From Branchiostoma lanceolatum (Eukaryota; Chordata; Leptocardii; Amphioxiformes; Branchiostomatidae): a stretch of DNA of 64,000 nucleotides. The notes under the pieces were generated by a model. It was given only the letters and a program-made list of their open reading frames with translations, had not been told where the DNA came from and searched no databases. The DNA lies in assembly GCF_035083965.1 (NCBI RefSeq), contig NC_089724.1, forward strand, positions 2,384,501-2,448,500, in the 5' to 3' direction. A program made the position numbers and the translations under genes. Shown piece by piece: positions 11,257 to 56,349 of the stretch. Numbering within the stretch: position 1 is the first letter of the stretch; each line of letters starts with the position of its first letter.

Positions 11257-14200
11257 TCAGGAGGCGGTCTTCGCGGGTTCTACATCGTCCACAGCCTCCT
11301 CGTACCATCTGTGGAGGCGGTGACGGCGCAGGACGGAGATGGCGCCGGCCTCCAGGCTGGTGGGGGTCACGCCCAGGTCCTCCAGACCGGGAACTCCTGC
11401 AGTCGTCTCGTCCGTGTGGTGGTCCTGGAAAGAGACACGATTATGCAACAACTGTCTGGTGCACTGCATATGTATATTGAAACAACAAAAAGATTTGCTG
11501 CCCCCTAGCTTCCATCTGAGACATCTTTAAAATGTGCACTTAAATGCAATATTCTAAATTGTATACTGAATTGTCTCTAGTATTTTATTGTTGTATTTCA
11601 ATGTAATTGTAATGTTTAGTGATCCGCAACATCAGCTTGGCTGCCTGGCACTCCACTATGTATTGTCTCGTTGCAATTTTCAATAAAGAATAAAGATTAT
11701 GCACACTTTAAACAGAGGTTCAAATAAACAGTGCAAATGAACTAAGTCCACATTTTGTTGACATTCTTAATGCCATAGCCTTATCTTTCTAATGGTTTTC
11801 TATTCACTAAGAATCTCGCAGGCAACACACCCGAATTGTCCTTCTACAGAGGTTTTACAACATATGTGAGCACATAAAAAGAATGACTTGTTACACTCCA
11901 CTAATTTAAAAAAATGCAATTAATCTAAAACGTCTCTGAAAACCATTGCTAAGTTAAAGCCTATGCTGTGCCCCCCTACGTGCTGATTAGGGGGGCACAA
12001 AATCCCCATGTTTCTTCGGGAACCCAATAACAAAATGATCATGAGTACTACAGGACTGGTGCTAACATAAAAGGGCAACCAAAAATCCAGACTTAAATCT
12101 TTCCTGAGATCACTAGTTTCACTGGTTTCTCAGTCCATCACAGTTAAATCATTTCATACAGTTCTCTAATGTTGAAAGAACAAACAGGGCCCAAGTTGCC
12201 GAGTTACCAATGAAAGTAATATTGCTTGTACAAGTATAATAACGTACCCTGATGACCTGGTCTCTGGTTAGGAGCGGCGTCCACTTCAGCTCACCAAACC
12301 TGGCTGCAATCCTGGGGACACAAACATAGGGGATGGATAACAGAATCACTCTAGGAGAGGACAATGCAGTGTAAGTAATACTACTAATAGTTCACTGTTG
12401 TCTAGCTCGCTATATTATAAATGAGTCTGTGAGCTCTAAATTACATTTTGGGCTGCACTATGGCTGCTGTCATCTCCATCACTGTTGTACTTTCAGGGAT
12501 CAGCCAATGTTTGTAGGTCGTCGAACCCTGCCCAAAGTGACAGACTAGATTTTCTGGTGAAAAATACACTTGACTCTGGCATTTCTGAAATTCCGCAACA
12601 TTCTGGCGATCAACAAATTCTGCCGAAAGTCGTTGGCAGTTTCATGCCGGCTTTAGCAACCCTACCTGTGCATGACAAGTTAGGAGGCTGTAAACTTTCA
12701 GGCTATTGTTGAGGGTTCTTGTCCTTAGCTGGTGACTGACTATATATAAAAGAAACACCATTAATTTTCAAAAAAGTTGTTGTCTTTTGTACTTACATGT
12801 ACAAGAACTTTGGGTAAGGGAAGATGAAGGGGGTCCGGTGCATGACTCGGTAGATATACTCCACCATGTCGTACAGGTAGTATCTGTTGGGCCTGTGGAA
12901 GACAGAAAACAGGTTGAGATTTTAGACCGCAGGATTAGAGCCAACAGAAGAACAACTGAAGGATTGTTGATGAATAGTGCAATCCATGGCCACTGTTGTT
13001 TGTTGTTCTTGCAACATTCAATATGTCTCATTATGTATAATTAGCATTTGCATTTCATCACCTTAATTTCTGAAAGTTCTTTATTTACAATCACATATTC
13101 AACAAGAGCTGATGTTTCAATGACTCAGTCTGTTCAGGGCAATTCTGATTTCATTAACTTGATTATCTATTTATTCCTGACTGTTGCCATCGTGCTCATA
13201 TGTTTGTATGTAACCGCTGAACTCATGTAGACTTGCCCTACTCTTTCGAGTGGCTGTCAACACATGTTTGTATGTGGAACTTTTCATCTCACCACAAAAT
13301 CCAGGATTGTGTGAAACACATTTAAACCTTTTTCTCTGCTATAAAGACAGAAAAAGTAAACTTCTGACATACCCCACGAGCTCATATGTCTTTCCCTTGG
13401 TGTCCCGCTCTTTGGCAGCATTGATAATCGCACTGGCTACGTCTCCCACCTGTGGAGTAAAAAGTTATCAGCATTAAATTCAAGTCTTGTCTAAACAAAT
13501 AATTCAGCTATTCTTCTTCTTCTGGCTTAGATAAATAGCTGACCCATGCCCTGCATGCTACTTTAGAGGTTCATCAGTTCTTAGGTGCCCATGCCCCGTC
13601 TTACTGTCTTACTAAAGAGTATTTGGTTATCCGGGCAGGTGTAGACAGTCAAGCCATTCAGTGGTATTCATTACACTGCTAGTGCCATTCCTTTTGCTTC
13701 CAATGGCAATTCCACTTACAGCTTGTTCAGTACTACTGCTGACTCTCTGCGTGCCTGCAAAGCTGGTGTGTTACGCTGAAGGGCGGTTATACCGGCTACA
13801 TTGATACAGAATTCGGTACAAGGCAAATTCCCTACATTATTTATGGTACTTACGTAGACGGGCTGCCGTATGGTCTTCTTGCCCCAGCTGATGAGGGGAA
13901 CACCTCCGAACGCACTCAGGTCTGTGTGTGGAAGGAAAAAAAAACAACTACCTGAGCCAAAATTTACCTGAGCCATGTTATGAACCCAGGTAGACATGAT
14001 GTAAGACCATAATCTAGTAATTGTAACCCGCCCTTCATGAAAGTGGAATAGTCCAAGAGAGCCTCATTTTGAGAAATACCCATGCTGTCATTCCATGTGT
14101 TGGAATCCTGGGGGTCAGGGAATAAACCATGTAGCTCCACAATCTCTGTATCTGTGTCCAATGACCTCAACATCGGTCCATAACAAGCCATCTGGAAGGC

Positions 14201-17200
14201 ATCTAAAAAATCACAACTGCCACGTCTAAATATCTAAGGAGAAGAACTGTAGGAGTGTCTGCTTACTGGCGTAGTAGTTGAGGAACCTGTCTTCCCTGCC
14301 GAACATCTGGGCAGGGCGCAGGATCGTGGCGTCTGGGAAGGCCTCCTTCACCGCCTCCTCTCCTTCATACTTTAGAGGAATAGAAAAGGTGTCATACATG
14401 TACTTTGAGTTTGTATTTGTATTTATTGACAATGAAAGACAAGTCATTACACTGGGTCAGCCTAGGCAGCTTTCGCTGGTAACGGCTGACCCACAAATAC
14501 AGATGAACATACCGTAAGATCATTGAAGTATCAACACTGATGTTTTACCAATGCAGTTTTGTATAGCTATATTTTGCTATAATTGTACATGCTACCATGT
14601 ACATGACTTTATGTCATGCCTGGGCCTGATACGGGTGTTCCGGACCGTGTGATAACTATCCGGATCACATAGGGTTCGGAAGTGTTATCACACAGGCTTC
14701 CATAGAATATTTCGAACGCATTTCGAGCGCGCCGGTTGTGCGGCCGTCGGAAATTCGAATACCGGATTCGGAGATTGGAATCAATGTTGCTACAGTTTCT
14801 TGTTCGAGGACACAAAACTCCCTCAACTTCTGGCGCATTCCGCATTGAAAGGTGTGTTTTTGCGGGTGGGTATGACCAAGGTATGACCAAGGTATAACAC
14901 GGTACGGCCGTCGGGCGATCCGACCCGCGGTCGGGCTGGTACCTCGGGTGATACGGAATACCCCGTGTTGTATTCTATATTTTTGTACACAATTGTATAC
15001 GCATAGGGTAGTCTGTTTTCAGGGAATACAATTCATAATATATAGAGAGACCTTTCTGCATCACACCAAATATAAAGTATACATGATAGGAAGCTGCACG
15101 TTGCTTTCTGACATCACTAGTCAACTCATATATCTTCAAGCATAAACTAGAGCAGTTTCAAGTGTAATTTTAAGAAAACGTGAAAGAGAATTATATCACA
15201 CAGGACTGCTTACTATAACTGTATAGGAGTCATAACCTAGGACCAAGTCTTTCAGTTCTCCTATGCTTAATTCTCCTCCACTTGCCAGTGCAGTTTTCCA
15301 ACACTTTTGTGTATACGAACATGTACATGTATACACACATGGTAGTCTGTTTTCAAGAATACATAATATGTATAGAGACCCTATTGTACATGTAGTACTG
15401 TATCTTGACACATGCACATTTATGCCCACTAATCAAACATATACATGTACGCATTCCTAGGCTTAATTTTCTCTCACTTGCCAGACCCAGTTATGACACA
15501 GACAAGCTCTCCCCAGTACAGAACCATTGCAGTTTTCCAACACTTTTGTGTATAAAAACATGTACATGTATACACACATGGTAGTCTGTTTTCAAGAATA
15601 CATAATATGTATAGAGACCCTATTGTACATGTAGTACTGTATCTTGACACATGCACATTTATAATGCCCACTAATCAAACATATACATGTAACCATGAAA
15701 GTTAAGTAAACAAGCTAGAAATTAAAGCAAGGAAGTTCTGTATAGCTTTCTGAAATTGCTATATACAGAAGATTCATGTTTATAAAAAAAGAGAATCATA
15801 GAACTGGTAATAACTGTATGAGGAGTCATAACCCAGGACCGAGCCTTGCGGTATCCTAGGCTTAATTCTCCTTCACTTGGCAGGTACAGTTCTGATACAG
15901 ACTCTCCCCAGAACTGAACCAAAGCAGGCCCTGTGCTCCGGACAAACCCTGAAGCACGGGACGCCGCATGACGGTTGCTCTAGCACTCTGTGTAGGCAGG
16001 TGGACCATGGGAAGGTCATGTGACACTCAGCAGCCAATCAGGCCGTGAGGAGTCACATGACCCGTGACCAATAGGGTCAAGGTGCCACACCTCTGTTCAA
16101 GTGCATTATTTCCCTTAAAGTTTGCTGTGTACATGTAGATCTATCATGGTATTGTTTTTGGTATTATTGAAGGAAAAAAACAACAATTTTAGAATCCCTA
16201 CTAGTAACTCAGATTAAGTACAGTAACTTGCTTGATTTCATTACAATCAACTGTATATCAAAAACTATCAAATGATTGCAGAATAGTTTGGATACGTATA
16301 CACCTGTCCATACTGGTCATTTTTGTCTTATTCAATACTTAGCATACTTATAGTAAGTTATACATGAATAACATCTAACATGTAACCTCACCTTTGTTCT
16401 GTACAGTTTTGAGGGGCTGTTGGGATCTGCGTTGAGAGACGACACGTGGATCAGCCTCTCCACACCCTCCTCCTTACACAACTGGGCGATCATACGCGCA
16501 AAGTCAACATTTACCTTCTCGAAGTTGAAGTTCCTGATGTGAGAGAGAAAGTATGTGTTTTGAATCTAAGTATCTAAAAAATTGTTAGTTAGTACTACAT
16601 AAAAGGTAACATTTTTCATCCAAATTTTTTATGATTTTGATTGTGGCAATACAATTTGCATTTACATGTAGTTCCTGATGTGGAAGAGGAAGCGTGTTCA
16701 TCATGGAAAAGTTTTTAAAAGCTTGAAACATGGTAGTTTATTTTAGGAGATTTTCATGTAAATGTAAGTAATGTAGAAGTCATTTTCAAGCTGTCTATAA
16801 TAATTCTAGGCACAGGGGAGCATATGCAAACTTTTAAAACTACCTGTAATAATTGTCAAACAGACTTGTGGAGAAGCCAAAGCAAAGGTAGGAATTTTAG
16901 TTTAAATAAAAAAGAAAAAGAAGACAGGATGGCTTAGAGTAGAGGACTGTTGATGATAAGTACGATAACTAACTTTGTCTCCCAGTCCCTGCCGATCAGG
17001 TTAATGACCACGTTGGAGTGTTTCAGCATCTTTCGGTACGACTCTGGGTCTCTCTCGTCAAGCTCCTGAATAGAGGAAAAAAGACACATGTTGTAGAATT
17101 ATTACCTGCATCAAGAAGGTTACGTTAGGAAAATGGACATTTTCACTGAACTTTGACTTCACGGTGGCGGCAAGTGATTTACAGAACAGATGTGTAAAGA

Positions 17201-19348
17201 AATCATGAATAATAACAACAGTTTATTTCATGGTGATGATAAGTTCACCGTACAGAGGGGACCGTGAAAACAGTGGACATAAAGTTAAAAATATTACAGT
17301 CTGTGAAAGAAACAAAAATTACAGTATGTCTTTGTGTGTGTGTGTCTGTTTATGTGTTTGTGAACGGTACAACTCGGGACTTCAAATTCCAGCTGTTGTT
17401 GCCCGACATGTACACTACTGGAAAGGGTGGCAGGCCTTAGGACTTAAGCCGTGGTCCATTGTACTTGTCGAAAAGAGGAATTTTCCCGGTACAATGAACC
17501 TGTCAATATCATTACAGTACACAATTACAGTACAATTACTGTCTTCTTTGTCTAGACCATTGGAAATTGGCTCTACATTGAGTTAAACTGGTTTGAGATC
17601 ACTATAACTTGTGAAGAAAAAATCAGGTCACTTATACCGAGAAGACGATCTGCCCTAGGTCTCCCATGGGTCTGAGGTACAGAGTGTTGTACCAGTCACA
17701 TCTGTGGGGCACCACCATCTGGCTACCATCACGGCCTAAAGGAACAAACATGCAAAACATACAACACAGTCAGTACTAAATTGATGCAGACTTACACTGG
17801 GCACATAGTTAATATGTAACAATTGCCAAAATGAAGAATGCATGCCATCATTGCTTGCACCATTATTTCAATGAAACATTCTATCACAAAGCAGCAAAAA
17901 TTTTCTTTCAGCAAGAACAAATTTGAAAAGAACAAAAATGATACCTCTGCAAACCTTGAAGAGTTTCATAACAACTGTCTCTAATAAGTGCTGCTGTTAC
18001 TAGTATGTGGATATCTTACATTTATCGACAGAACATCAATAAGAGTAAGAAGAGAATCTAATTCTAACTATATACCGAGTTTGTTGATGACATATCGTCC
18101 TAGAAACCCGGTGCCGCCGAACACAGTGGCACAGATCCCGCTGAAGGAGGAACGACCCCCCCTGCCCCGGGGGGTGTGGGCACCGGTTGGGATGACGTTG
18201 TTGTGGACGCCACGGCTCTGCAGGACAGCGACCCCCGCTACAGGGCTCAGCTGGTGGCCTGTAAACAACAACAGTTGATTATTTGTTTGTGTGTGGCATT
18301 GTTGTGGACACCACGACTCTGCAGGACTGCCACCCCCGCTACAGGGCTCAACTGGTGGCCTGTTAACAAGAAAATATGTTTGTTTATTTGTTTGTGTGTG
18401 TGGACATCCCGGCTGTGCAGTAATGCCACACTATAGGGATCAGCTGGTGGCCTGTAAACAGCAACAGGAGTTTGTTTGTTTGTTTATTTGTGTGTGCGTT
18501 GTTGTGGACACTGGCTATGTAGGACTGCAACCCCTGCTATACTGTATATGTATTTAGGCTCAGCTGGGGGTCTGTATTAAAGTGAAAGTGTAAAGAACAA
18601 CAGGTGTTTGTGTGTGTTCTAGATACTGTAAATTCATTCATTCTTGTGTGGGGATTTAATTTTGCGGTGGAAAAGGAAGGGATTATTTTGTGGTGTTTCA
18701 AGTTCATGGTTGAAACCATTTTTAGTATATTAGTAATACATGAGTGGAAACCTCTTAAAGTGTTATCACAGTGTCATTCATTTGCTGTGGAGAGGTTATC
18801 AAAAAAAACAAAAAACGCAGAAATAAAACCAACACAAAAATTTGAGCATTAAACATATCTATTGTTGTGGACTGCTACACTTGTTATGATTTCAGCTAGA
18901 TCATGCCCAGATGAGAATTCTTTGTTTGACTTTGACTGTTGTAAAGTTTGTAACTGTTTTATCACCATACATATCAGTTTAAGTCAGACTTTAATGAATG
19001 TAGCTCGCAAAGCACATATCGGATGAGTAAAAGACCTTGCGCTCTGACTTCCAGAAATCTTTGAATCTGATGATAGTACACCTCAAATGCACAAGACCCC
19101 CTTCCCCTCGCTATCGGACCCCCTCCCCCTTCTCAGCTGTTGCCCTTCCCAGTGAAGGGCAACAAGGACCGCTTTGTTTTGGGCGGCGTTACTGAGTTTT
19201 TGGGACTCACAGGAAGTTGACACTTCACGCAAATATTTCAGTGCGGGATCTAAATTCATATTCTACCTAACAACATACTCCTTGATGCATAGAATAGAGA
19301 ATATTTACCTGCCAAACCGGCACTTCTGACCACCAGAATGGCCGCCAT
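11257..19348 (-). CDS. NDUFA9: NADH dehydrogenase (ubiquinone) 1 alpha subcomplex subunit 9, mitochondrial (376 aa)
   Basis: Eleven exons on the minus strand: 19309-19348, 18076-18258, 17638-17735, 16974-17065, 16392-16533, 14267-14369, 13854-13921, 13373-13449, 12797-12892, 12248-12311, 11257-11424. Splice phases match at every junction and the total is 1131 bp (376 aa; human is about 377). It is an accessory subunit of respiratory complex I with an atypical short-chain dehydrogenase fold on the matrix side. Seen: N-terminal targeting-type sequence [11 protein letters not shown], Rossmann loop [12 protein letters not shown] (residues 59-70), [13 protein letters not shown], the VNVDFARM...[11 protein letters not shown] stretch, [17 protein letters not shown] and a C-terminal [17 protein letters not shown]. 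The first ATG lies in an AAAATGGCGGC context typical of YY1-type housekeeping starts. Introns carry repeats and partial copies of exon edges (see 18298-18578 and 16668-16700). Confidence 0.96.
11580..11700 (+). mobile_element. Probable retroelement 3' end
   Basis: The segment TCAGCTTGGCTGCCTGGCAC ... CAATTTTCAATAAAGAATAAAGATT looks like the 3' UTR tail of a non-LTR element, with a doubled AATAAAG signal. It sits in the last intron of NDUFA9, in antisense orientation. No coding part remains. Confidence 0.35.
14625..14960. other. CpG-rich island of unknown origin in an NDUFA9 intron
   Basis: About 335 bp rich in CGG, CCGGAT, TTCGAA and CGGCCGTCGG words, set in AT-rich intron. It contains GTGATAAC...GTTATCACAC inverted words but no convincing terminal repeat. 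The right border (TACCTCGGGTGATACGGAATA) is shared in inverted form with 34860-34895. It resembles the 33-904 element in style, so it may be another non-autonomous mobile element. Confidence 0.4.
15289..15692. repeat. Tandem duplication (about 160-bp copies, 243-bp spacing) in an NDUFA9 intron
   Basis: Copies at about 15289-15449 and 15532-15692 share CAGTTTTCCAACACTTTTGT, the ACATGTACATGTATACACAC run, GGTAGTCTGTTTTCAAGAAT and TGTACATGTAGTACTGTATC nearly identically. A diverged third partial copy lies near 14990-15050 (GGTAGTCTGTTTTCAGGGAAT). Confidence 0.85.
16668..16700 (-). repeat. Partial copy of the NDUFA9 exon 5 acceptor junction
   Basis: AGTTCCTGATGTGGAAGAGG followed by AAGCGTGTTC repeats the exon 5 / intron junction at about 16527-16560 (AAGTTCCTGATGTGAGAGAG, AAAGTATGTGTT), about 140 bp away in the same intron. 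Confidence 0.5.
18298..18578 (-). repeat. Three degenerate copies of the 5' edge of NDUFA9 exon 2, with acceptor sites
   Basis: Copies at 18298-18375, 18401-18470 and 18498-18578 repeat the exon 2 start, acceptor AG and adjoining intron (original about 18190-18290). The first copy would encode [20 protein letters not shown] unchanged and keeps its AG. None has a downstream donor. They lie between exon 1 and exon 2, so each is a possible decoy acceptor. Confidence 0.85.
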
Positions 19349-20149: not shown

Positions 20150-21595
20150 ATGTCGTACATGCTGCCACATCTGACCAATGGCTGGCAGGTGGACCAGGCC
20201 ATTCTGTCGGAGGAGGACCGCGTGGTGGTGATGCGGTTCGGCCACGACTGGGACCCCACCTCCATGAAGATGGACGAGACGCTATACTCCATCGCCGACA
20301 AGGTACGGCACATCAGGCTCTTTTAACGAACTTATTGATTATCTTGATTATTATGATATTGTAAATGCAGAAAAGTTTGCGTTGGTTTTATCAGCCTGGT
20401 TTTATGTTCATCTTCATGTTTTTTTAAACCACCGCAATAGGTTTTTGCCTTCCTACCCCCTTGTCTAGATCTACTATTGTCTCAAACGTGAACCTAAGAC
20501 TACCGCGAACACTCCATTTTCTTCCTACCGCAAAATCAAAAGCATACAAACTTAAATGCATTTACAGAAGTAGGAAATGTGAAGGCCGTACCATTGTATA
20601 TACAACAAGCAAACAAAAGAACAAGCAAAATGTGATGTCATTATATACAAAAATTTGCCACTCTTTGTACTGGCCATTCCCTCACAGCTAGTGCTTGGCT
20701 ACCCCAGCTTTAACATGTTGTACAGACTTAGCCTCTACTATTCAGTATTTGGTGTTTGACTCAATGACTGTTTTAGAGAAATAACTGCCTTTGCAATTGT
20801 GTGTTTCGATCTTGCATGTTGCTTGAAGAGGTATATCATACTATAGTATAGTCGTATGTATATTGGAGTATCATGAATTGTAAATATATTAACTACACAG
20901 GTGGCATGCTTCATGAAAGGTCCAAAATTAGCCATGTTGCCATTGTGATGAATGAAGTAACATTATATGAAAAATTGCGAGCATGTTTCTGTATGTAACA
21001 ATGTATTAGTTCAAGGATGGGCGGGCGAGTTTGTGGGGATATATCAGAGCCCCGCCTCCCGAGGAGGTTGTTGGCGAGTACCAAGGACTGACCATTATTT
21101 CCTCTCCCTTGAGGCAGAGGTGCTATAACCAACCTGGGATCTGGTCTCAGCCAATGGAGAGCCAGACTTTATGCTAGAGCACCTCTGCCTCAAGGGAGAG
21201 AGGTGCTCTAACTAACTTTGGCTGTGTATGTGGATTTCAAACAGCAAAATACCCGCTCCTGATTGGCTAAGGACAGATGGCTGTGCTCTAATGTCTTTTC
21301 TTGTCTTATCATCTTTAAGATCAAGAACTTTGCGGTGATCTACCTGGTGGACATCTCAGAGGTGCCGGACTTCTGCAAGATGTACGAACTGTACGACCCG
21401 TGCACGGTCATGTTCTTCTACCGGAACAAGCACATCATGATCGATCTGGGCACCGGAAACAACAACAAGATCAACTGGTCCATCGAGGACAAGCAGGAGA
21501 TGGTCGACATCATCGAGGTGGTTTACAGGGGAGCCAGGAAGGGCCGCGGTCTGGTGGTGTCACCCAAGGACTACTCAACCAAGTACAGATACTAA
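20150..21595 (+). CDS. TXNL4A: Thioredoxin-like protein 4A / DIM1, U5 snRNP spliceosome component (142 aa)
   Basis: Two exons, 20150-20302 and 21320-21595, joined in phase 0 at IADK|IKNF. The 142-aa product matches the invariant DIM1 length and nearly its whole sequence: MSYMLPHLTNGWQVDQAILS at the start, RFGHDWDPTSMKMDE, LVDISEVPDF, YELYDPCTVMFFYRNKHIMI, GTGNNNKINW and the ending SPKDYSTKYRY. DIM1 has a thioredoxin fold without redox cysteines and is part of U4/U6.U5 tri-snRNP. The start codon follows GTCGCC. The final exon edge is the seed of the tandem array that begins right after the stop codon. The gene is head-to-head with NDUFA9. Confidence 0.98.
20415..20575. repeat. Dispersed repeat, also at 52288-52440
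   Basis: Both copies contain ACCACCGCAA, ACCGCGAACACTCCATTTTC (or a close variant), an ATAAAAACCATGCAAA-type string and AAATTTAAATGCATTTA. This one is in the TXNL4A intron, the other in IMMP1L intron 4. The family is not identified. Confidence 0.5.
21101..21205. repeat. Inverted repeat in the TXNL4A intron
   Basis: Left arm CCTCTCCCTTGAGGCAGAGG then TGCT (21101-21124) pairs with right arm AGCACCTCTGCCTCAAGGGAG then AGAGG, separated by about 50 bp. It is probably a small fold-back element. Confidence 0.7.
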
Positions 21596-26492: not shown

Positions 26493-26622
26493 GGTCTGTC
26501 CGTGTTACAGGTTAAAAGAACGCGAACTTGTAGATAAAAACCAAAGGCTCAACAAACATAAAGGGAGGTAGCGTTTTTACCAACGTTATGTGAAATACAA
26601 TTTTAAGTGAGTCCCGACTTTT

Positions 26623-28930: not shown

Positions 28931-28941
28931 GAGTCGTTTAA

Positions 28942-30293: not shown

Positions 30294-30371
30294 TTAAAAA
30301 CATCCAGTTACCAGTGTATTTCTTCTTTTGAGTTCGAAATTCGCGGAAGTTTAATCCGCTCAACGTGTGCT

Positions 30372-34459: not shown

Positions 34460-34534
34460 GACCCCACAATGGTCTAAGAACCCTTGTCTAATACATTGTA
34501 TAAAATGAATCTTTTAAGCCATGCAACGGAAAAG

Positions 34535-46500: not shown

Positions 46501-46980
46501 TGGTTCTTCTTGTCCAAGTCTTGCTTTCCGGATTGGACGATGGCCCGTACCTAGGGATGTGTTAATCAGGGTATTAACTATCTATGCGTCCATGCGTCTC
46601 ATACATGCATATCATTTAATACGGATGGTAGTAAAATTCAAAGTGTCGTTACAGTACTGCAAAATTCAACTAAGTACAGGTCCAAAATACCAGATGTCAA
46701 GGTACCGTGGACCTTACTCTAATAAACACATAATACAAATGTATGCTGTTCCATGCTCCACACTGTTCAATTACCCCCTACACGTCCCTAAGCTTACCGT
46801 ATCGTACTGGCCGATGGACGAGGCTGTGTGGAGGTCAATGGGGATGGGATCGAACCCGTCTGTGTCCGTGTTGAGGGAACCCCACCCTCGCCACATGGAC
46901 AGGCTACGGTCCAGGAGTTCGTTCTCGCTGGCTTCATCGCTGGCCTCGTAGGGATACTCCACGTGTTCCGTGCAACTCAT
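34535..46980 (-). CDS. ANKS3: Ankyrin repeat and SAM domain-containing protein 3 (748 aa with the core exons)
   Basis: Exons on the minus strand: 46798-46980, 45635-45872, 44777-44893, 44013-44162, 43076-43302, 41962-42174, 40867-41022, 40375-40491, 39527-39658, 37979-38131, 37015-37128, 35962-36070, 35380-35460, 34535-34791. Phases agree throughout; total 2247 bp. The order matches vertebrate ANKS3: DEASENELLDRSLSMW start, about five ankyrin repeats (residues 48-230; GSWTPLMYACYIGHDNIVNL, TPLILAASCGNESVAYFLLQ, GLTPLCLAAGEGHEIIVQTL), the DDLSSSDEF linker, GYVTF...CFRDVISPIN, a poly-Ser tract, a SAM domain split over two exons (468-530; FEDQDIDLHVFLTLTDNDLK, GPRRKMTSAIARYHS) and a C-terminal coiled coil. 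In vertebrates ANKS3 is a scaffold linking NEK and ANKS6 proteins in cilia and kidney development. Many exon edges here are locally duplicated in introns. An extra usable exon copy is at 40224-40319. Confidence 0.95.
34951..35008 (-). repeat. Copy of the acceptor edge of ANKS3 last exon
   Basis: TTTCCGGGTCGCCCTACTGG, then TCTTCTTGGGAAGCATCGTC and TTCTGG, repeats 34757-34797 (TGTCCGGGTCTCCGCCGTCT etc.) in the upstream intron. Just before it, 34860-34895 matches, inverted, the edge of the 14625-14960 island. Confidence 0.65.
35981..36345 (-). repeat. 91-bp duplicate of ANKS3 exon (coiled-coil region) plus short tandem units
   Basis: 35981-36071 and 36141-36231 look identical over 91 bp, covering most of the exon and its acceptor edge. 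Between and after them GTGGTTAGTAACAGTTTCCA, TGGCAACCTG repeats about five times to 36345. The copy lacks the donor end, so it should not splice as an exon. Identity implies a recent event or gene conversion. Confidence 0.85.
36366..36440 (+). mobile_element. Possible tRNA-derived SINE relic
   Basis: A T-arm-like hairpin CAAGGGTTCAAATCCTTG (B-box GGGTTCAAATCC) follows a weak leader. Other tRNA arms are not convincing. Confidence 0.3.
37231..37500 (-). repeat. Copies of the acceptor edge of ANKS3 exon 37015-37128
   Basis: Three copies carry CTGCTCCTTCAGCTGCTCCG, CCTGCGCATACACCTG and the adjoining AACACAGGTGTGTTAGCACC. The last also has GACAGCCCTCCACCACGCCC. They share exon sequence, acceptor AG and intron, extending the junction into a tandem array. 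Confidence 0.85.
38278..39045. mobile_element. 768-bp inverted-repeat element with TTA target duplication (Harbinger-like MITE)
   Basis: Left end GGCCACAGCAAGTAA, then TTTTATGGATGACATC; the right end is the reverse complement (GATGTCATCCATAAAAATTA, CTTGCTGTGGCC). TTA flanks both sides (38275-38277 and 39046-39048). The interior holds about three copies of a roughly 115-bp unit (CAGAAAACAGCTTGT, ACTACACTGGGTATTCATAT). Its tip GGCCACA is shared with the element at 54858-55028. Confidence 0.85.
39290..39487. repeat. (ATTG)n microsatellites flanking a copy of the ANKS3 SAM-exon donor edge
   Basis: ATTGATTG runs lie at about 39295-39345 and 39405-39487. Between them 39355-39403 (ATGGATACAGAAGTG, CCTCACCTCCTTCAGGTC) repeats 39495-39540, which spans the real exon-intron donor junction. 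Confidence 0.8.
40060..40140 (+). mobile_element. Retroelement 3' tail with (TTGAC)n
   Basis: CAAGGGTTTCGAAGTAAAATAAAGGCCTTGACTTGACTTGAC has the polyadenylation signal and short-repeat tail typical of CR1/L2-type 3' ends. Only the tail is visible. Confidence 0.35.
40224..40319 (-). CDS. ANKS3: Alternative or additional copy of ANKS3 exon 40375-40491
   Basis: A 96-bp segment (32 codons) with an AG acceptor at 40320-40321 and the same GGTATGG-type donor as the 117-bp exon next to it. It is in phase 0 at both ends and encodes KRPPKPDPPLEVLPPLPANV and TTPAPDSEGSTE, against MPDPPLEVLPPLPANI and the same ending in its neighbour. Unlike the other exon-edge copies it keeps both splice sites and frame, so it can be included or used in exchange. 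Inclusion gives 780 aa. Confidence 0.5.
40561..40658. repeat. Hairpin element in an ANKS3 intron
   Basis: ACCAAAAAACAGTTACTCAA, then GCGACTGGATAAAA, pairs with TTTTATCCAGTTGC, TTGAGTAAATGTTTTTTGGT. Arms are about 34 bp and the loop is about 30 bp. A fold-back MITE. Confidence 0.75.
41158..41625 (-). repeat. Three copies of the 5' edge of the ANKS3 poly-Ser exon
   Basis: At about 41158-41242, 41361-41443 and 41562-41625 the string GCTCTTGATAGTCAGAGCGT, TGGACAGAGCGAAGGCACACTG recurs. The first two continue through the acceptor (TCAGCAGCCTGTAAC). They lie in the upstream intron of exon 40867-41022. Confidence 0.85.
41854..42347 (-). repeat. Copies of both edges of ANKS3 exon 41962-42174
   Basis: 41854-41912 repeats the donor side (GGAACTGTCCAAGTCATGTT, CGCTGACGTTGAT). 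42233-42347 repeats the acceptor side including the GGACGGAGGGTGGGGCTGGG string and a CAG acceptor. The latter encodes PHPPSNDPPPQNPAVPNSPG but runs into TGA and lacks the exon's second half, so it is a pseudo-exon. Confidence 0.85.
42817..43064. mobile_element. Long-arm inverted-repeat element, 11 bp from an ANKS3 splice donor
   Basis: Ends CTGAATAAAAAGACTC ... GAGTCTTTTTATTCAG; the arms extend through ACACAACCAA and AGATTTATTCAACCGACGTT. The interior contains AGCAGCAACACCTGTGCTGC and CCGAAACGTCGGTT. A second copy is at 57233-57420. It ends just before the donor of exon 43076-43302. Confidence 0.85.
43655..43710 (-). repeat. Copy of the donor edge of ANKS3 exon 44013-44162
   Basis: CACTGACCCACGATCTTGGA, GTGCCCGTTGATGAGCGCCAGCATG repeats 44006-44050 across the exon-intron boundary, about 350 bp into the intron. 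Next to it 43818-43895 is a fragment of the SINE family at 55625-55945. Confidence 0.8.
44440..44757 (+). mobile_element. Two retroelement 3' ends
   Basis: 44440-44580 carries GCTTTGTCAGCAGGGCTAGC ... CCAATAAATGGTTAG, a UTR-like tail. 44709-44757 (GTAGACCTTAC, then GAGTCGCTGTACTTTTGTTG, TGTCAATAAAGATT) matches the 3' end of the retrotransposon at 5054-5699. Confidence 0.6.
45420..45585 (-). mobile_element. tRNA-derived SINE
   Basis: On the minus strand: A-box TGGCCGAGTGGGTAGAG and B-box GAGTTCGAACCCC, then a body containing TACTGCTTTCTCTGCTTAGC. Related to the deleted copy at 10026-10112. A short fold-back remnant (45236-45295; TGTCTGATAGACATTGAAAC) lies beside it and matches 56125-56160. 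Confidence 0.75.
45947..46560 (-). repeat. Five tandem copies of the acceptor edge of the ANKS3 ankyrin exon 45635-45872
   Basis: Copies near 45947-46011, 46085-46150, 46193-46316, 46375-46440 and 46496-46560 carry TTCTTGTCCAGGTCCTGTTT, the GATTGGACGATGGCCCG string, the CCTAGGG acceptor and GTGTTAATCAGGGTATTA intron. The third copy extends about 60 bp further into the exon (GTTGACGATGTTGTCGTGCC). Spacing is about 120-145 bp. Confidence 0.93.
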
Positions 46981-48161: not shown

Positions 48162-51100
48162 ATGTTCTCCTCGCGACTGCGGGCGGCTGCGTGGAAGGCT
48201 GCAGCAGTCGTCGGCTACGCAGTCCAGTACGGCTGCATCGCTCACTGTACACTGGAGTATGCAGCGGACTTCATCGTTGTAAGTTTGTTTGTTTGTTTGT
48301 TTTGCATACCAGGGTAACTGCCTCATTGCATAACACACTAGGTTTGTAGTGAACAGTACACGCTGCATATCTGGACATATTTATTTGATCCACTCACATG
48401 GGGATGGACCCCTACTCTTTGCGAACTGTTGTGGGTTCTTTTACATGTAATGATGTATGTGCTTTTGTACAAGCTCTGACCTCAAACAAAGGACCCCCAT
48501 TTAATGTCCTATCCAAGGATGCCTTAAGCCTCTAACTGAAGCTAGGTACTCATATTCACCTGTCAGTGAGTAAAGTGAGGAAATTTGAGAAGGTAAGAGA
48601 GATGAGAAAGTTGTAAAGCCTATGATCACATGACTTCATTGTTGATTATATCATATTATTAAGCAAAACTGAAAACTAAAAATATAGCTTTGCTTGTATT
48701 CAAATTTGTTTCTTCAGTGTTCGGGCCCTTCCATGGAGCCGACCATCCACACCCAGGACATCCTCATCACAGAGAAGTTCAGCGTCATGCTGAAGACTGT
48801 GGATGTGTGAGTCATTCATCTGTGTCATTGAAACACACATATTAGATATAGTCTGAACACATTCAAGAACTCATCTTCATAAAAGTATTTGGTATTTAGA
48901 TACAGTATTTTCATTCATTTGTCATTTTTTTGAGAATGTATATTGTTTTGACCACAGACTTAAAACATGGTGGAAACCTGTTTGAATTATTTTGACTGAC
49001 TTGACTTACTAGCAAACATCAAAGAAGCTAAGATAAACTTAATGCCGATGCGTTGTTTTAACACCACTGTAAATACTTTTAAATGTGTAATGTCTTATGT
49101 GGAAACCAAGACAGTGCAATATACCTTATGAACAGAAGGCACAATTCAGCCTTTGGCTTCGATGCATTTTTATCAATAAACCATTTTGATTGATTGATCG
49201 ATTAAACCTACTATCCATACCTACTGCAAGATTAAATGAAATGAAATAAAAATGACTGAATTTCCAATAAGTGACAAACTTTGAACTTGTCACTGCATGT
49301 TGTGTATAACAAAATTAGATAACAATCTTGCGTCATTGATCTGAGTGTGATCTGCAGGTAGATGACTAAATAAAACTAAATTGTCTTCAACCTGACAGTG
49401 CCCTTTTATTAAGAATTAAAGTACTTACTAAGCTTTTTTCAAGTCTTTGGTATCACCCAGCCAGGATATGAACCCCTGATGTTCCAGTTGCATTTGTGTT
49501 TTTCTCTAGGGGTGATGTGGTGATCGCCAGGTCTCCCACCAACCCGAACATCTTCATCTGTAAGAGAGTGGCGGGGATGGAGGGGGACAAGGTCTGCCTC
49601 AACCCCGGGTCCTTCATCAAGAAGTACAGATGGGTAAGTTCACGGTGAAACTGATAGGGGGCTCTGCTGTACTGTGTGTTCATGTATGTCATGATGTAAA
49701 GTTGATATGTTTGACAAAGCCCGCCTCAACTCTGGGCCATTCATTAAGAAATACAGATGGGTCAGCTCACCATAAAACCAACAAGAGGTGCTGCTATACG
49801 GTGTGTGACTGTTTGAAGAAGTCTGCCTCCTTGACTTAGAATTCTAGTTTTGAATCAATTAGCTATATCACTGCAGCTGGGTTTTTTTCCTACACCTAAG
49901 GAATAAAATACATCACAATATTCTCCGTTTGTCTGTCTGTGTGTGTTTCGCTCTACATGTCTATATCTGCGCTTCTGTCTGTGTCTATTTTAGTTTGTCT
50001 GTGTTTCTTGTCTGTCTGTGCTTCTGCGATATCCATGGCAATATACGTGTAGTACTACACAGAATGGTTGTAGAGCAGAATGGGTAAGGGGGTGAAGTCT
50101 GCCATCCCTGATTGCCATGTTGTTTCTGTTAGGTTCCCCGTGGCCATGTCTGGTTGGTCGGCGACAACATGGCAAACTCCAGCGACTCCCGTGTGTACGG
50201 GGCCGTACCGTACGCGCTGCTGAGGAGCAAGGTCGTCTTCAAGGTCAGATTGCATTTAAAAATACCTACACCACTACACAACACCCATTCTTTCCGCTAC
50301 TTACGATCCACTACTCACGGAGTCACGTGTGCTATCTGCATAACGTGACGTCATCCCAGCGGTGGATGGATCACTCCTTGACATTTAAGACAGATGTCGT
50401 ACGGTCGAAAATTTGGGTAAGTCCAATTTTTGTGTTGGAAATTACAGTTATTACTCGTTTAAGGACCACTAACTTTCTTTCACTATATATATTATCATGT
50501 AAGTCCATCATTTACAAATGTGTTAATGGTGATTCTGCTATTGTTTTGCATCTAATACTGTCTCCCGGCCTAGTTTTCTCATTAAATTTCTGGTGGTCAA
50601 TCAGCACAACGGGTATCTTCCATAGTGCCACGATTGAATGATGATGTTTGAGAAAAGCCACACCTCCAGCATGTTAAAGAACAAAGCACCTTAAGGCCTG
50701 AGAAACTATTAAAAAAAGAGTATAGGTTCCTTCCAATCTAAGTGGGTAGAGAATGCACAGCCTTCATAACCCCTGCTTCTTTTATGGGGTCAGTTAGTCC
50801 TCTCTCTGTGTGAGTCATAATGTTTCTGACTAAGGGTGAAGATATGCTGTTCCAGTTCTACAAGTAGTAGTTGTAGTAGTATCCAGTATTTGATTACATC
50901 TGTGTACTGCTGCCGGGGTCCCTGACACGAGTGGACAGCAGTCGGCTAGTCGTCACAGTCCACTCTTCCATGCAGCTCTGTCCAGGGGGTTGACGCTGGT
51001 TAGGCCGCACATCTTAATGCCTTTCCCGGCACACTCCATCCAAGATACTCAATAATATAACCCATAGCCCGGTCTTCAGGCCGTTATGTGAGGAGCTGGG

Positions 51101-54100
51101 GACCATGATTTATCGAGTAAGAATGTCTCCCTCACTGAGTGGGACATGGCAGAAACTTTCCCAACTCATGTACTCCAGGAGTTCTCAGTCCACTCAACCA
51201 AACAGCACATTTGTTTCAATTGTTTGATGCCCTCTTTCCACAAAGTGGAGCATTTATCAGCATGATTTGTGCAACGTTGCGCCAAAGGGTACGTCCAAGG
51301 AGAATTTCAGAGGTTGGACTTAAATTAAAGTTTGGTACTTCAATTATAAGAAGCGGGCAAGGAAATGAAGATGGGTTTGCAGTGCGGTACTACGCGGACG
51401 TTTTTCCGCTGATAAGTTGCCCGAGAATGGCTTCCCTTGTTATAGCTGTAATGTTATCTACTCACAAAGGGGAAGTAGACAGTCTGCTTGCCTCGTTAAC
51501 CTAATTAGCTGTCATTGTACTTTCATTCTGTGTTAGTTTTCATTAATTTCTGTCCCCTACTTTTAGCCTCGATATCTAAAGCGACAGTCTTACATGAAAT
51601 GAAGTATATGAAAAAGACTTTATCTGCATCCAGGAACAGATTTACAAACAGGATAGTCCGTACCTGGATCGTTCAAAAAGCAAGACAAGTTGAATAGTTC
51701 AAATACCCTCTTTCAACGATCGGCATGCTTTCCTTTTTTCCAATGCACTTTTTTCCCAATAAGTAACAATAATGCCACAAATATAGACTAATCATCATTT
51801 TATTTCATTTGTATATTTTACCAGTGAGAAATCACTGACTGTTAGTGACTTTTGAAGTAAAAGGAGCTAGAATAAACACATTCGAAGTGCTTTACTACCA
51901 GTAACATCTTTTGTAAGGAAGACAGCATAAGAATATTTATTGGCTTAAAAAAAACATCATAAAGTTTTGTTCTCACAATGGGTGTAACCCCTAAAAATAT
52001 GCTGCTTATTATAATTACCTGCTGAACTGATTGGCGTTATTGCCTCTGAGCGGTTTGGGACCCAGTTTGAGGTGATCTACTGGTGCCAATTTAGACCGCC
52101 GTTCGCTGTTTAACAGAAGATGAAGTAAATCAGGAGATGTGTCTTCGTCGCCATGCAGTGGTGAGAGTGGAAGTGTCTGTTGTCCACGCAGGACACCAAT
52201 TATCCAACGTGTATTACAAGTTGTAAATGAGCCCCGATCCATCAATGTAGAACTACATCCTGCTCAATGGTCCATCACACAATGCCACAATTACTGTAAA
52301 ATGCAGAAATATTTGCGGTGGTTTATGTTTGCAGTTTTGCGGCGACCGTTTTACCGCGATCCAAAACCACCGCAAACATTCCATTTTCCCCATAGCGCGA
52401 AATAAAAACCATGCAAATTTAAATGCATTTATAGTTTATAATTATACTGTTTAATCTTTTACGGTTGTTGACCTTCATGTTTGTTTTAAAGTGCCCTCTT
52501 CACCATACATAATAAGTCTCCGTTGTTATATTACTACATAGTAGCCTAAGATTGTTTCAGCTGAAAACGACTGGTTCTCAGACTTTAAAAAAAATGATTA
52601 GACAGTTTGTGCCTAATGGTTCAGCATACTGTAGGGCTGGCTCGTTTATTTTCGTGGGTACCTATAGTTACAGAGAATGGGATTTTGCATTAATCACTTT
52701 TAGATACATCGAAAATGTTTGCGCCCGTCCCTGGTGTCGTTCGGCGCCCGTCCCTAGCGTCCCCGGGCGGCGCCTGGAACCCGGCGGGGAGCCCGCGCGG
52801 ACGCTGTCCAAGACGTCTGGGACGTTTTCTACGGCGTCAACGACGCCGTCAAATGAGCCAATCTAGACGCGTCCGGCGTTTTTCAGGCCGTTCAGACCGT
52901 CCAAGACGTGTCATCAAGAGATTTACAACTGAGTCTCGTCCAAGTCGGTCTGCAGTCATAATTCAGGACGCATCGAATTTCAGTGGACGCCCGTCACAGA
53001 CAGCGTTCGGCCGTTTGGGACGGTTTCATTTTCACAGAGGTATATTTGCAATTATGAGTTTTGGGGTAAAGTCCGGATCTCAATACACATAATGTATGGG
53101 AGTGAATATAGCCAGATACAATTTGTAAGCTCTCCTATGAGCCTTCTGTTTTCACCTTGACCCTTAAGTGGAATTTAAAATGGAAAAACTGACTGGTTTA
53201 GTTACATGTACTGCAGCTATAGCAAGGTGTCACTGCTACCAGATGCAGTCCCAAAAGTATTTAGTACACAGTCATATATGTTGTAGGTGACAAGTTCATG
53301 CTTCAGTGCAGAATTGAACCAGTCAGTTTTGCCCTGAGGAAGATGAGAGGCGGACACCAAAACACTTGTTTGTGTACAAAGAAGTTTGTAAATCAGTGAC
53401 TAGATTGATACAACTACCCACGGAGGTATTTGACACAATTAGTAGTAGTAAAGGAAAAACTCAAATTTCCAAACTAATTTTGTGCCAAGTTTCGTTGGTT
53501 CTGACAGTTTTATGGATGGTCCCCTTAAGATCTAGACTAAGGGAAACAAACATACCTTGTTTTATGTCTGCTTATTTCCCGATAATTTCTCTGGAATAAC
53601 GACATATTCTGTCATTTTTGTGGGTTTTGATGGACTCCTTAGGGGTTCCAAACCACTGCAAAAGGGTAAAATGCAACATTACTCTGTTTTACGATCTGAT
53701 TAGAGATTCTATAGGCATATCTGCTTATTTTGCTTCATTTTCGTAGCAATTACAAAGCATTCTGTCATTTTGGGGTGGTTTTGAAAAGGTCTCACAGCAG
53801 CGTTCCATCTTGTGAAGTGGGAGACTTGTCTATGATTAGACGCGTCAATCATACTTCTGTTAAAAGTTCTTAACGGAGCAAGCTTTCTGGTGATTGCTCC
53901 CCTGATGGGTATAACATCAAACCTGTCAAGTCAACGCTGAACAAACATTCCACCAATTTTTCAGTTCAGTGGACGGACTTGAGTTCAATGAACTCGGTAT
54001 CATGTCCACTGGGTCGGGAAGCAATTAGCACCCAATTGTTTGTAAAATTACATGGCAAGCTGGCCTTAGAGTACATCGTTCACATGCATTTTCAACCAAT

Positions 54101-56349
54101 CATATCTAAAGCTCTGAATATCAATAACTAATAATTTTACATGACTATTTTCACTATGAAGAGACCTTTCAGCTGATGCCACACACACTTGTAGGCAGAA
54201 AGTTAATATTTCTGAAGATTCCAAATTCTGTTTTTCTTGATTTTGAACTGTCATCACAATCCGATCAGTGTATTCACCCAAAACATCTGAGGCTCTCATT
54301 GAGCCTTTTTTGTGTTGAATTGAAGTAAAGAAAAATAAAAAGGTTATAGTATCACTGCATACATGTAATTCAAACTCTATAGATTAATTCTAGAATAAAA
54401 TTAATCAAGTCTAAAATTATCATAAAGTTTTACATTATCTTTCAATTTTACCTGATATTATACAGATATTCACATTTCTGTGCAATTGTAAGGAACTGTA
54501 GTTTATCTTGTTGGTACTGGCTGGTAACCAAAACAACCTCGTTTTATGCATTGCTGTACTAAATCTGCTACAAAAAGTGCAGTAAAAATTGCTAGCTGTT
54601 TTTATGTTATGGGTTTAAGTTGTACATTTTGCAACAATTTGTCTGCTGATTCATCAACTTTTGTGTGGCAATTACCACATGAAGTTTGGTGGCAGTTTTG
54701 TAGCTGAGTTATGATGCATTCTGTCATTTTGATTTTTTGTTGTAGAATTGAAATGGTAAAGTCACATCAACACCACGTACATCTTATGATGATGATGAGG
54801 CCACAAGAATTGTCACTTATCATTGCATCTCATTTACTACGTCATCTTTCTGCATTAGGCCACACCAATTTAATTTCTTGGTTAACGGATTTTTATTTTC
54901 CAAAAACAAAAAATATGTTTAAAAAAACAGAAGGCTGGGCCAGCCTTGTTTTCAATAATTTTTTTTTCTAAAATTTTTATTTTTTTGAAAATAAAATCCA
55001 TTAACCAAGAAGTTAAATTGGTGTGGCCTTAGCGTTCAAAGCATTAAGCTGCTGCAGCACTCACACCTCCTGAGGGAGTCATTTAAATGCAATTGTTGCC
55101 ACTATCAGCTATTCTACCTTTAGTTTGATTACCCTTGATGCGTTTCTCAAAATTCCCAGTTGAGGTAAAGCACTCAAACAAAAAGGCTTGATGTAAGTAA
55201 GGACAAGATCTCGATGCTGTAGATTGTAAAATATTCGTGTTGTTTTTACACAGGCTGATTTTGCAGAGAGTTCTCATTGTGAACTCATTGCACCAGGTGA
55301 ACATGTGTCTTTTTTTTGGGGGGAGGGGGTGATCTTGTACATGTATTGGCCTTACGATTACTTGGCCCTGAACCCAGTAACAAGAGGTCACAGTCTGAAG
55401 TTGAAAGTTCTGTTGGCGAAGACAAGAACTAGGAACCTTGCATACAAATTGTATTCAGTGTATATAAGGAGAAACCTTAAATGACTGGAACTTTCTGCCA
55501 GAGAGGATGGTGTCGAGCAAAACAGTACAAGATGCACATGAACACTGATGTTTGAACATGACTGAACAGACAAACAAAGAACCTTTCTCTCTTGACTTGT
55601 ATATATATATTATATAGAAAGGTTTATGTACATGTACCTGTTGCGCAAGCGGTAACGCAACCCCACTGATTAGCCATCTGGATCGAATTCCGTGGATCCT
55701 GGCATGGGCCCCAAGTTTGATCCTAGGGTCGACTCCAGCTTGGACATGTTAAAGGGATTGCATTTGTCATTTCGGATGGTGCCGTAAAGCCGGTGGCCCC
55801 GTGCATGAGGGAGCTTCAGGCATCAAAGCGTCTGTATGTAAAAGAACTCAACACACTTATCAAGAAGAGTAGGGGTGACCCGGTGTGCTTGGCCAAAACG
55901 CGAGCCGTGGCGAAGTCACACTGCACTACCACTACTTCTTGAAAAAGCATCTTGCTTCACCTCAACTGAAGATGACTGCTTTATCTAGAGTACCTTATTT
56001 CTGATTAGGATATAGGAGATTCTTTGTACACAACCAGGTATTGTACTCACTTGCTAACGCTTCGATGTCTATAAGACACCTTCTTCAGAGCTTCTAACTG
56101 GAGTACTGCATTCCGAAGCTCTGAAGAAGGTGTCTGATAGACATCGAAACGTTAGCAGGTGAGAACAATACCTGGTTGTGTACAAAGAATCTCCTATATT
56201 CTACCAACCTGATGAAATTGTTTTTGGTACCTTACTTCTCTCTGCAGGTCTGGCCACCAGGAGACTCCGGCAGCCTGAGGGGGCCTCCACAGGAGATGCT
56301 GCAGGTCCTCAGGACCCTGAAGGACACAGGAGGCTCTGGGGCCAGATGA
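48162..56349 (+). CDS. IMMP1L: Mitochondrial inner membrane protease subunit 1 (180 aa)
   Basis: Exons 48162-48278, 48718-48806, 49510-49633, 50133-50243, 56248-56349; phases agree and total 543 bp. It is a type-I signal peptidase (S26) of the mitochondrial inner membrane that removes sorting signals from proteins bound for the intermembrane space. Seen: a VVGYAVQYGCIAHC membrane segment, the catalytic serine in CSGPSMEPT (Ser44), the general-base lysine in ICKRVAGMEGD (Lys87) and box E HVWLVGDNMANSSDSR (111-130). The C-terminus (PGDSGSLRGPPQEMLQVLRT) differs from the human end but starts with the shared WP. Intron 4 is about 6 kb and full of repeats; a fold-back element ends 50 bp before the last exon. 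Head-to-head with ANKS3. Confidence 0.95.
48395..48455 (-). mobile_element. Fragment of the GTAAAAGAAC SINE family, inverted
   Basis: On the minus strand ACATGTAAAAGAACCCACAA ... AGAGTAGGGGTCC matches 43825-43870 and 55845-55880. Confidence 0.5.
49085..49205 (+). mobile_element. CR1/L2-like retroelement 3' end with (TTGA)n tail
   Basis: ATGCATTTTTATCAATAAAC, CATTTTGATTGATTGATCGATT: a polyadenylation signal followed by a tetranucleotide tail, typical of CR1/L2 3' ends. It lies in IMMP1L intron 2. Confidence 0.5.
49690..49835 (+). repeat. Copies of the donor edge of IMMP1L exon 3
   Basis: GACAAAGCCCGCCTCAACTC, TGGGCCATTCATTAAGAAATACAGATGG repeats the end of exon 3 (49588-49633) and then its intron (AGCTCACCATAAAACC, GTGCTGCTATACGGTGTGTG). 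A short third remnant GAAGAAGTCTGCCTCC follows at about 49815. In the first copy the donor GTAAGT has become GTCAGC. Confidence 0.85.
50880..51120 (-). pseudogene. Degenerate non-LTR retrotransposon C-terminus
   Basis: The minus-strand translation contains SWMECAGKGIKMCGLTSVNP, LDRAAWKSGL and RLADCC...GTPAAV, a pattern common at the C-terminus of non-LTR pol proteins. Several stops interrupt the frame. Neighbouring 51130-51510 has a broken frame on the same strand that may belong to it. Confidence 0.4.
52015..52245 (-). other. Open frame of unknown origin in IMMP1L intron 4
   Basis: A 76-codon minus-strand frame containing TRWIIGVLRGQQTLPLSPLH and LLHLLLNSERRSKLAPVDHL. Residue use looks protein-like, but I recognise no family and no splice context. 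It may be a relic of a mobile element. Confidence 0.25.
52288..52440. repeat. Dispersed repeat, second copy of 20415-20575
   Basis: GCGGTGGTTTATGTTTGCAG, the ACCACCGCAAACATTCCATTTTC string, then AAATTTAAATGCATTTATAG. Family not identified. Confidence 0.5.
52710..53030. other. CpG-rich island of shuffled GACG/CGTCC words in IMMP1L intron 4
   Basis: About 320 bp with dense CGTCC, GACGTC, GGACG and CGGCGTC words in an AT-rich intron. The Arg-rich translations are artefacts of the composition. It resembles the 33-904 element and the 14625-14960 island in style; I could not find terminal repeats. Confidence 0.4.
54858..55028. mobile_element. 171-bp MITE with TTA target duplication
   Basis: Left end GGCCACACCAATTTAATTTC, TTGGTTAACGGATTTTTATTTTC; the right end is its reverse complement. 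TTA flanks both sides (54855-54857, 55029-55031). It shares the GGCCACA tip and TTA target with 38278-39045. Confidence 0.85.
55625..55945 (+). mobile_element. SINE-like element, most complete copy of its family here
   Basis: Starts TTGCGCAAGCGGTAACGCAA, with a B-box-like AGTTTGATCCTAGG, and runs through GTATGTAAAAGAACTCAACA, AGAAGAGTAGGGGTGACCCG and GTGTGCTTGGCCAAAA. Fragments of it are at 43818-43895, 47895-47935 and 48395-48455. Confidence 0.6.
56011..56198. mobile_element. Near-perfect fold-back element before the last IMMP1L exon
   Basis: Left arm TATAGGAGATTCTTTGTACA, CAACCAGGTATTGT ... CTTCGATGTCT; the right arm is the complement (AGACATCGAAACGTTAGCAG ... TGTACAAAGAATCTCCTATA). Arms are about 85 bp. 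The acceptor of the last exon is only 50 bp downstream. Confidence 0.85.

Follow-up and report, generated by a model that had tools for sequence, protein, structure and literature searches.

Genes in the window

The analysed window, 64,000 nucleotides of Branchiostoma lanceolatum DNA, was identified as an amphioxus locus by self-comparison, translation and protein searches. Five multi-exon genes were modelled in it, and most of the local repeat families in their gene bodies lie across the edges of exons, above all in one gene, ANKS3. An earlier reading of the same sequence, the original prediction, had pointed to amphioxus intronic minisatellites that share exon/intron junction sequence. This is correct: such repeats are published as mirages – tandem repeats holding an exon end, a splice site and intron, as described in PMC3087553 and PMC3902484. 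By their anatomy, the splice-edge families reported here are further amphioxus mirages, of this known kind.

ANKS3 lies at 34535–46980 on the minus strand and has 14 coding exons with an open frame of 750 amino acids. NDUFA9 (11257–19348, minus strand) has 11 exons and a 376-amino-acid frame, the TXNL4A coding sequence (20150–21595, plus strand) has two exons, and IMMP1L (48162–56349, plus strand) has five exons and a 180-amino-acid frame. The fifth gene, at about 1.6–8.6 kb on the minus strand, encodes EGF domains and, by the author's reading, C-type-lectin and Ig-like parts; its exon edges were read by eye. A leucine-rich-repeat (LRR) gene at 23658–26504 on the minus strand has an uninterrupted open frame of 949 amino acids.

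The NDUFA9 and TXNL4A models were checked against solved relatives, and those of ANKS3 and IMMP1L by Pfam. A comparison with predicted proteins covered the ANKS3, NDUFA9 and IMMP1L models (all except TXNL4A), and in it the IMMP1L model was 99% identical to a B. lanceolatum protein. The ANKS3 frame stays open without the extra copies and agrees with other Branchiostoma predictions, save for the frame of exon 8 in the record P0003. In the list of edges, GT is missing at 2 of 38 donors and AG at 1 of 38 acceptors, so that a few edges are misplaced by some bases.

Local repeats at exon edges

The whole window was compared with itself by BLAST, with simple repeats masked, and local direct pairs within 1.5 kb were grouped into families. 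The 70 local direct pairs found fell into 28 same-strand families. At an expectation value (E) of 1e-3 the five gene bodies hold 21 families, 15 of which span an exon edge and 6 of which are purely intronic. The other seven comprise one family wholly within the LRR coding exon and six outside modelled genes. In the five genes the edge-spanning share was 15 of 22 at a cut-off of 0.1, 15 of 21 at 1e-3, 14 of 20 at 1e-6, 13 of 19 at 1e-10 and 11 of 13 at 1e-20. Every family there that touches an exon crosses an edge (15 of 15, E 1e-3), and the extra copies of the edge families sit in introns or in the 3' flank, with the exception of a whole-exon duplication in the EGF-domain gene. ANKS3 is the source of 11 of the 15 edge-spanning families.

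Repeats cover 18 of the 85 edges in the models, made up of 16 of the 76 splice edges and 2 of the 4 stop codons. By gene, the covered edges number 11 of 28 in ANKS3, 1 of 22 in NDUFA9, 1 of 10 in IMMP1L, 1 of 4 in TXNL4A and 4 of 21 in the EGF-domain gene. Nine of the 14 ANKS3 exons are affected; among the splice sites of this gene, 6 of the 13 acceptors and 4 of the 13 donors are hit. The ANKS3 region measures 12.8 kb, and extra copies account for about 2.9 kb of this, with edge families contributing about 2.4 kb. In a scan of the 76 splice edges, each set against 20 block shuffles, 23 beat all of their own shuffles (about 3.6 expected by chance); several low scorers among these 23 were excluded from the family counts.

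Much of what the original prediction said about these copies is borne out. It had named a dozen or more exon edges with copies nearby, and copies were found at all of the named sites except the NDUFA9 exon 5 acceptor, where the match is weak (local score 32, against 20 for the best of 20 shuffles). The copies were said always to lie on the same strand as their source; all exon-containing copies are direct, and none of the 13 local inverted repeats in the window has exon bases. Most copies do lack one splice site, as had been stated: apart from the EGF pair, they carry only the edge that is spanned. A splice junction is included in the 12 one-edge families and the EGF exon, as claimed, but not in the TXNL4A array or in one ANKS3 family, which hold a stop codon and 3' flank. 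The assertion that the duplications always straddle exon edges fails, given the intronic families (6 of 21 in gene bodies), the family inside a coding exon and the six outside modelled genes.

Repeat families in ANKS3

All of the ANKS3 families are on the minus strand. Four acceptors carry arrays. That of exon 2 (45759–46599, edge 45872) has five extra acceptors in intron 1, four with an intact AG; that of exon 7 (40946–41618, edge 41022) has about 3.3 copies of about 200 bp; that of exon 11 (37050–37526, edge 37128) has three extra acceptors; and one copy in that of exon 12 (35981–36361, edge 36070) appears as an exon in the public protein model P0001. The exon 6 acceptor (42047–42351, edge 42174) has a copy at 42225–42351 in intron 5, in a unit that is nearly all exonic, and the exon 14 acceptor (34750–35016, edge 34791) has a copy at 34952–35016.

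At the donors, exon 4 (43994–44060, edge 44013) has a 67-bp copy with the same donor at 43645–43711 in intron 4. Tandem pairs are found at exon 6 (41810–42033, edge 41956), with the extra copy in intron 6, at exon 8 (40181–40476, edge 40375), with the extra copy at 40224–40329, and at exon 9 (39287–39538, edge 39527), where the unit is mostly intron, part of it tetranucleotide repeat, with about 12 exon bases. A further family surrounds the stop codon (34240–34614, edge 34535), with copies in the 3' flank at 34373–34459 and 34240–34277.

The pair at 40224/40375 had been put forward as a possible case of a new exon. This is not supported – the copy at 40224–40329 would be an exon of 106 nt that breaks the frame with exon 9, and it is absent from all four Branchiostoma models compared.

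Three families in ANKS3 are purely intronic and serve as counter-examples to the edge pattern: a pair at 36610–36995, a family at 38497–38912 and a pair at 43553–43796.

Repeat families elsewhere in the window

The NDUFA9 exon 2 acceptor has an array (18198–18539, minus strand, edge 18258) with a unit of about 101 bp. The TXNL4A array (21550–22086, plus strand) is made of the last codons, the stop codon and a few bases of 3' flank, and its core word is present 10 times, the original counted. In IMMP1L, the exon 3 donor (49586–49806, plus strand, edge 49633) has a copy at 49713–49806. The last intron of this gene also contains two near-palindromes, at 56006–56203 (198 bp, 91%) and 54857–55029 (173 bp, 76%).

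In the EGF-domain gene a whole exon is duplicated (4424–5051, minus strand). The two exons, 4430–4540 and 4829–4939, both have an intact acceptor and donor and an open frame. Between the duplicates (4424–4652 and 4823–5051) the intronic part is 92% similar and the exonic part 78%; the lower exonic similarity may reflect fast or diversifying change of the exon. An intron of the same gene holds an open frame of 146 amino acids at 5059–5496, with a cysteine pattern that presumably resembles the tail of a non-LTR (non-long-terminal-repeat) retrotransposon protein.

The remaining counter-examples in modelled genes are all on the minus strand. Two intronic families are found in NDUFA9 intron 5 (14994–15927), and a pair in the EGF-domain gene (4656–5759) lies in two neighbouring introns, at 4656–4715 and 5700–5759. 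A 57-bp in-frame repeat in the LRR gene (23705–23991) is wholly within the long coding exon, near its 3' end. This coding minisatellite lies in the same region as the edge repeats, away from any splice site. Where no gene was modelled, at 57500–60561, there are large direct duplications of 646 bp (91% identity) and 403 bp (86%), together with a family of dispersed local copies.

Excess of edge-spanning families

The number of edge-spanning families was compared with random placement under three null models. All P values are post hoc and hence optimistic, as the window was chosen because the pattern had been noticed.

When whole arrays were rotated across the gene-containing part of the window, 8.6 edge families were expected and 15 observed (p 0.007). 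For splice edges alone the figures were 13 against 8.0 (2.8% of rotations as high), and with at least 10 bases on each side of the edge they were 13 against 8.1 (2.9%). The number of covered edges was not unusual (18 against 12.9, p 0.12). Rotation within the ANKS3 region alone gave 11 against 6.9 (1.6%), or 9 against 6.4 (10%) with the wider margin, and in IMMP1L 1 family was seen against 0.16 (16%). In the left half of the window (1200–34200) there was no excess, with 3 families against 3.35 expected.

In the second null model single repeat units were placed at random, with the extra copies left out and with units and exonic shares set by hand. Here 15 edge families compare with 5.2 expected (P 5e-6). 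ANKS3 contributed 11 against 4.5–4.8, and the other genes 4 against 1.4–1.5 (P 0.03–0.04).

The third counters the longer recognisability of slowly evolving exonic halves – all exon bases were masked and the search was redone. Ten edge families were still detected, 7 within 6 bp of the edge and 3 at 9–20 bp, along with 6 intronic families. Against a pooled null this is 10 against 3.8 (P 6e-4). Gene by gene, ANKS3 retained 7 against 3.3 (P 0.016) and the other genes 3 against 1.4 (P 0.12). Masking removed four edge families (the exon 14 acceptor, exon 6 acceptor and exon 4 families of ANKS3, and that of IMMP1L exon 3), and of the ANKS3 stop-codon family it left only a pair in the flank, apart from the edge. 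Tetranucleotide runs beside ANKS3 exon 9 had been left unmasked, so the count was also made without the exon 9 family, as given below.

The excess is thus moderate, between about 1.6- and 2.9-fold according to the null model and roughly twofold overall. It is carried mainly by ANKS3, and its generality is unproven. Two explanations concern this excess, and both are compatible with an ordinary origin of the duplications themselves.

The first is ascertainment: exonic halves evolve slowly and keep old edge pairs recognisable for longer, and the window was picked for its pattern. The four families that vanish under masking, and the stop-codon family that is lost from its edge, are what such a bias would produce; the choice of window was post hoc; and in 20 of 30 pairs identity is higher in the exonic part. 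Still, an excess of about twofold is present in the masked search, and in 21 of the 30 pairs the exonic and the non-exonic identity differ by no more than 10 points, although pairs from one array are non-independent in both of these counts, which are the author's. The odds are somewhat against ascertainment as the explanation, which nevertheless deserves serious consideration.

The second is that duplication is directed to exons. Transcription-linked breakage, exon chromatin or a nascent-RNA template would favour exon ends, and mirages would be a distinct mutational class. This agrees with an edge excess that appears under every unit-level null model, that persists with exons masked, and that is accompanied by an edge-spanning share of 11 of 13 families at E 1e-20. 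It sits poorly with the smaller excess under rotation, the unremarkable number of covered edges, the absence of any excess in the left half, and the few families outside ANKS3 (4, or 3 with exons masked). It is also at odds with the stop-codon arrays, which have no splice junction, and with the position of the edge in the unit, which is not distinguishable from uniform. Exon-directed duplication is considered unlikely. Of the junction-directed process in the original prediction, the excess over random placement stands, while its concentration in ANKS3, the lack of a fixed break point and the involvement of stop codons speak against the rest.

Structure of the duplicated units

The exonic share of the units ranges from 0.11 to 0.97, with a mean of 0.60, and is not distinguishable from uniform (Kolmogorov–Smirnov p = 0.14, n = 14). 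Because of this spread, the exon edge is no special or fixed-position break point in the unit. Edge-spanning pairs are 71–95% identical. The non-exonic parts of the units have a GC (guanine plus cytosine) content of about 0.42 (mean of 15 values), compared with 0.40 for introns and untranslated regions, and the idea that these parts are GC-rich was rejected.

Some of the families form arrays (NDUFA9 exon 2, the TXNL4A stop codon, and ANKS3 exons 2, 7, 11 and 12). Others are single copies, at distances of up to about 280 bp from the source (ANKS3 exon 4). Separated single copies of this sort would fit template switching as well as slippage.

Two families, those of TXNL4A and ANKS3, sit at stop codons and have no splice site. 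"Exon/intron junction" is therefore too narrow a label. As no splice junction is visible at these two families, they speak against an origin linked to splicing and for a general filter at coding edges.

Splice sites in the copies

The AG or GT dinucleotide is intact in 20 of the 21 splice-edge copies, where 14.4 would be expected from overall identity. The EGF pair was left out of this count, only alignments spanning the edge were included, and copies within one array are non-independent. The possibility that splice sites in the copies are purged was accordingly rejected. Since these decoy sites are not purged, splicing would have to prefer the site on the complete exon, for which exon definition is the obvious candidate reason. 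If a copy site were used, the reading frame would be shifted at 15 of the 21 offsets. Compared position by position, identity near the copy junctions is only slightly above that of the flanks, and selection on the copies is not established.

Public ANKS3 protein models

The best match to ANKS3 is the B. lanceolatum record P0001, which matches the model at every residue apart from two inserts, one of 50 and one of 43 residues. Between exons 6 and 7, P0001 reads through beyond the exon 6 donor and then includes a copy of exon 7; ahead of exon 12 it includes one copy of exon 12. The inserted peptides are found in the window at 41896–41973 (with the end of exon 6), 41183–41269 and 36102–36230. To be spliced in, the exon 12 copy would need a gap of 31 bases in the window that lacks a GT and is too short for an intron.

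The other B. lanceolatum record, P0004, is free of these inserts, but its frame is lost near exons 11 and 12, both of which bear arrays. The other two Branchiostoma records, P0002 and P0003, have neither inserts nor frame loss, though exon 8 is in a different frame in P0003. The simplest reading, from sequence comparison, is that the 93 extra residues of P0001 are repeat sequence mis-annotated by an automatic pipeline. Arrays of this type probably do practical harm in that they mislead automatic annotation into faulty public gene models.

These records bear on the proposal that copies are retained as spare or regulatory splice sites. One public model does place copies in exons, and several of the copy sites, nearly all with the dinucleotide kept, score near the real site. 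The two B. lanceolatum models, though, conflict with each other and with the other Branchiostoma models at these places, and the 31-base gap and the frame-shifting offsets are further obstacles. Such a function is improbable.

The same records bear on the assembly. Amphioxus is highly heterozygous, and collapsed or concatenated haplotypes could yield false tandem copies. The pairs are only 71–95% identical, though, and, the EGF exon excepted, they consist of partial exon plus flank. P0001, from the same species and possibly from the same assembly, holds peptides of the same arrays. An assembly artefact is very hard to credit, even though one mirage is reported in PMC3087553 to have been aberrantly assembled in a draft genome.

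Proposed origin of the repeats

With a probability of about 0.6, these mirages arise from ordinary local duplication that is filtered by coding constraint. Replication slippage, template switching or another ordinary process at the level of DNA would duplicate stretches of about 50–230 bp in place, adjoining their source or within a few hundred bases of it, and unequal exchange would expand some of the pairs to arrays. Splice junctions as such would not determine the sites of duplication. Where coding sequence is overlapped, a duplication would, as a rule, persist only if the extra copy falls on the non-coding side, in an intron or the 3' flank; the survivors would straddle an exon edge because the original exon must stay intact. 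The extra splice sites would be tolerated, with splicing continuing to pick the full-exon copy through exon definition.

Several observations are counted in favour of ordinary duplication: the edge-crossing by every exon-touching family, with non-coding extra copies in all but the EGF case; the purely intronic families (6 of 21), the in-frame coding repeat, the two stop-codon families, an exonic share not distinguishable from uniform, the lack of excess under rotation in the left half of the window, the near-ordinary GC content, and the preservation of GT and AG alongside an open frame of 750 amino acids. The regular splicing and the haplotype differences in copy number reported for published mirages are counted on the same side.

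Other results weigh against it, and a purely random model with a coding filter underpredicts the edge cases. With wholly exonic positions excluded from unit placement there are still 15 edge families against 5.4 (P 1e-5). With each family confined to its own gene the figures are 15 against 6.6 (P 1e-4), or 14 against 6.3 (P 2e-4) without the tetranucleotide-rich exon 9 family. In the masked search, the gene-by-gene null gives 10 against 4.7 (P 0.004), the count without the exon 9 family 9 against 4.4 (P 0.01), and the seven families within 6 bp of the edge alone 7 against 3.6 (P 0.03). A moderate edge excess is left unexplained by this model, and part of it may be ascertainment. In addition, the chance of at least 20 of 21 dinucleotides being intact is 0.004 from overall identity and 0.02 from local identity (about 0.87). 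This is a hint, and only that, of slightly better preservation of the copies' dinucleotides than of the bases around them, something not expected under neutrality.

A bolder view would be that duplication in lancelets favours coding edges, whether at splice junctions or at stop codons. Exon ends would then continually seed short arrays, spare splice sites would be maintained and some copies would become exons. This view is doubtful. If it were true, edge-favouring duplication would have produced about 2.4 kb of the ANKS3 region (12.8 kb), and an exon bias confirmed across the genome would amount to a distinctive mutational process. Mirages have received little study as contributors to intron growth, possible new exons and redundant splice sites in amphioxus, an outgroup of key importance among chordates. 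The present window illustrates how dense they can become and extends them to stop codons.

Comparison with known systems

The mirage papers describe these repeats in the globin genes BflGb6 and BflGb9, with Adh3 and other loci also cited (PMC3087553), and in PGBD5, with troponin C cited (PMC3902484). Both 5' and 3' boundaries are hit, and many copies have an intact AG or GT (PMC3087553, PMC3902484). Splicing of the published mirages is reported to be regular, their copy number is reported to vary between haplotypes, and the formation of new introns and exons from them has already been proposed (PMC3087553). No genome-wide or statistical study of mirages was recognised among the matches listed, most subscription papers being outside the search; one of these matches, PMC2632668, concerns amphioxus VCBP genes and mentions tandem repeats.

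The present families resemble the mirages of these texts in genus, in units of exon end, splice site and intron, in the involvement of both donors and acceptors, and in the frequent preservation of AG and GT. This anatomy is found in the 12 families with one splice edge and in the EGF exon, and is lacking in the two stop-codon families. The setting is a cephalochordate gene, the ANKS3 model being a B. lanceolatum protein minus two inserts. They differ from the published cases in number and distribution – the 15 families are spread over five genes, ANKS3 alone holding 11, and two lie at stop codons – and in that the excess was measured.

Intron gain by tandem duplication, as proposed by Rogers and cited in PMC3087553, similarly starts from tandem duplications that cross splice signals and could give rise to new introns. 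The copies described here lie inside existing introns or in the 3' flank, and no new intron or exon was demonstrated. Tandem exon duplication is matched by the EGF pair (4430–4540 and 4829–4939), which is complete, open and splice-competent and keeps the frame, whereas the other 14 edge families copy one exon edge only. What is new here is the density of mirages in one gene, the cases at stop codons, an excess measured with reduced detection bias, the preservation of the splice dinucleotides, and the probable damage to gene models.

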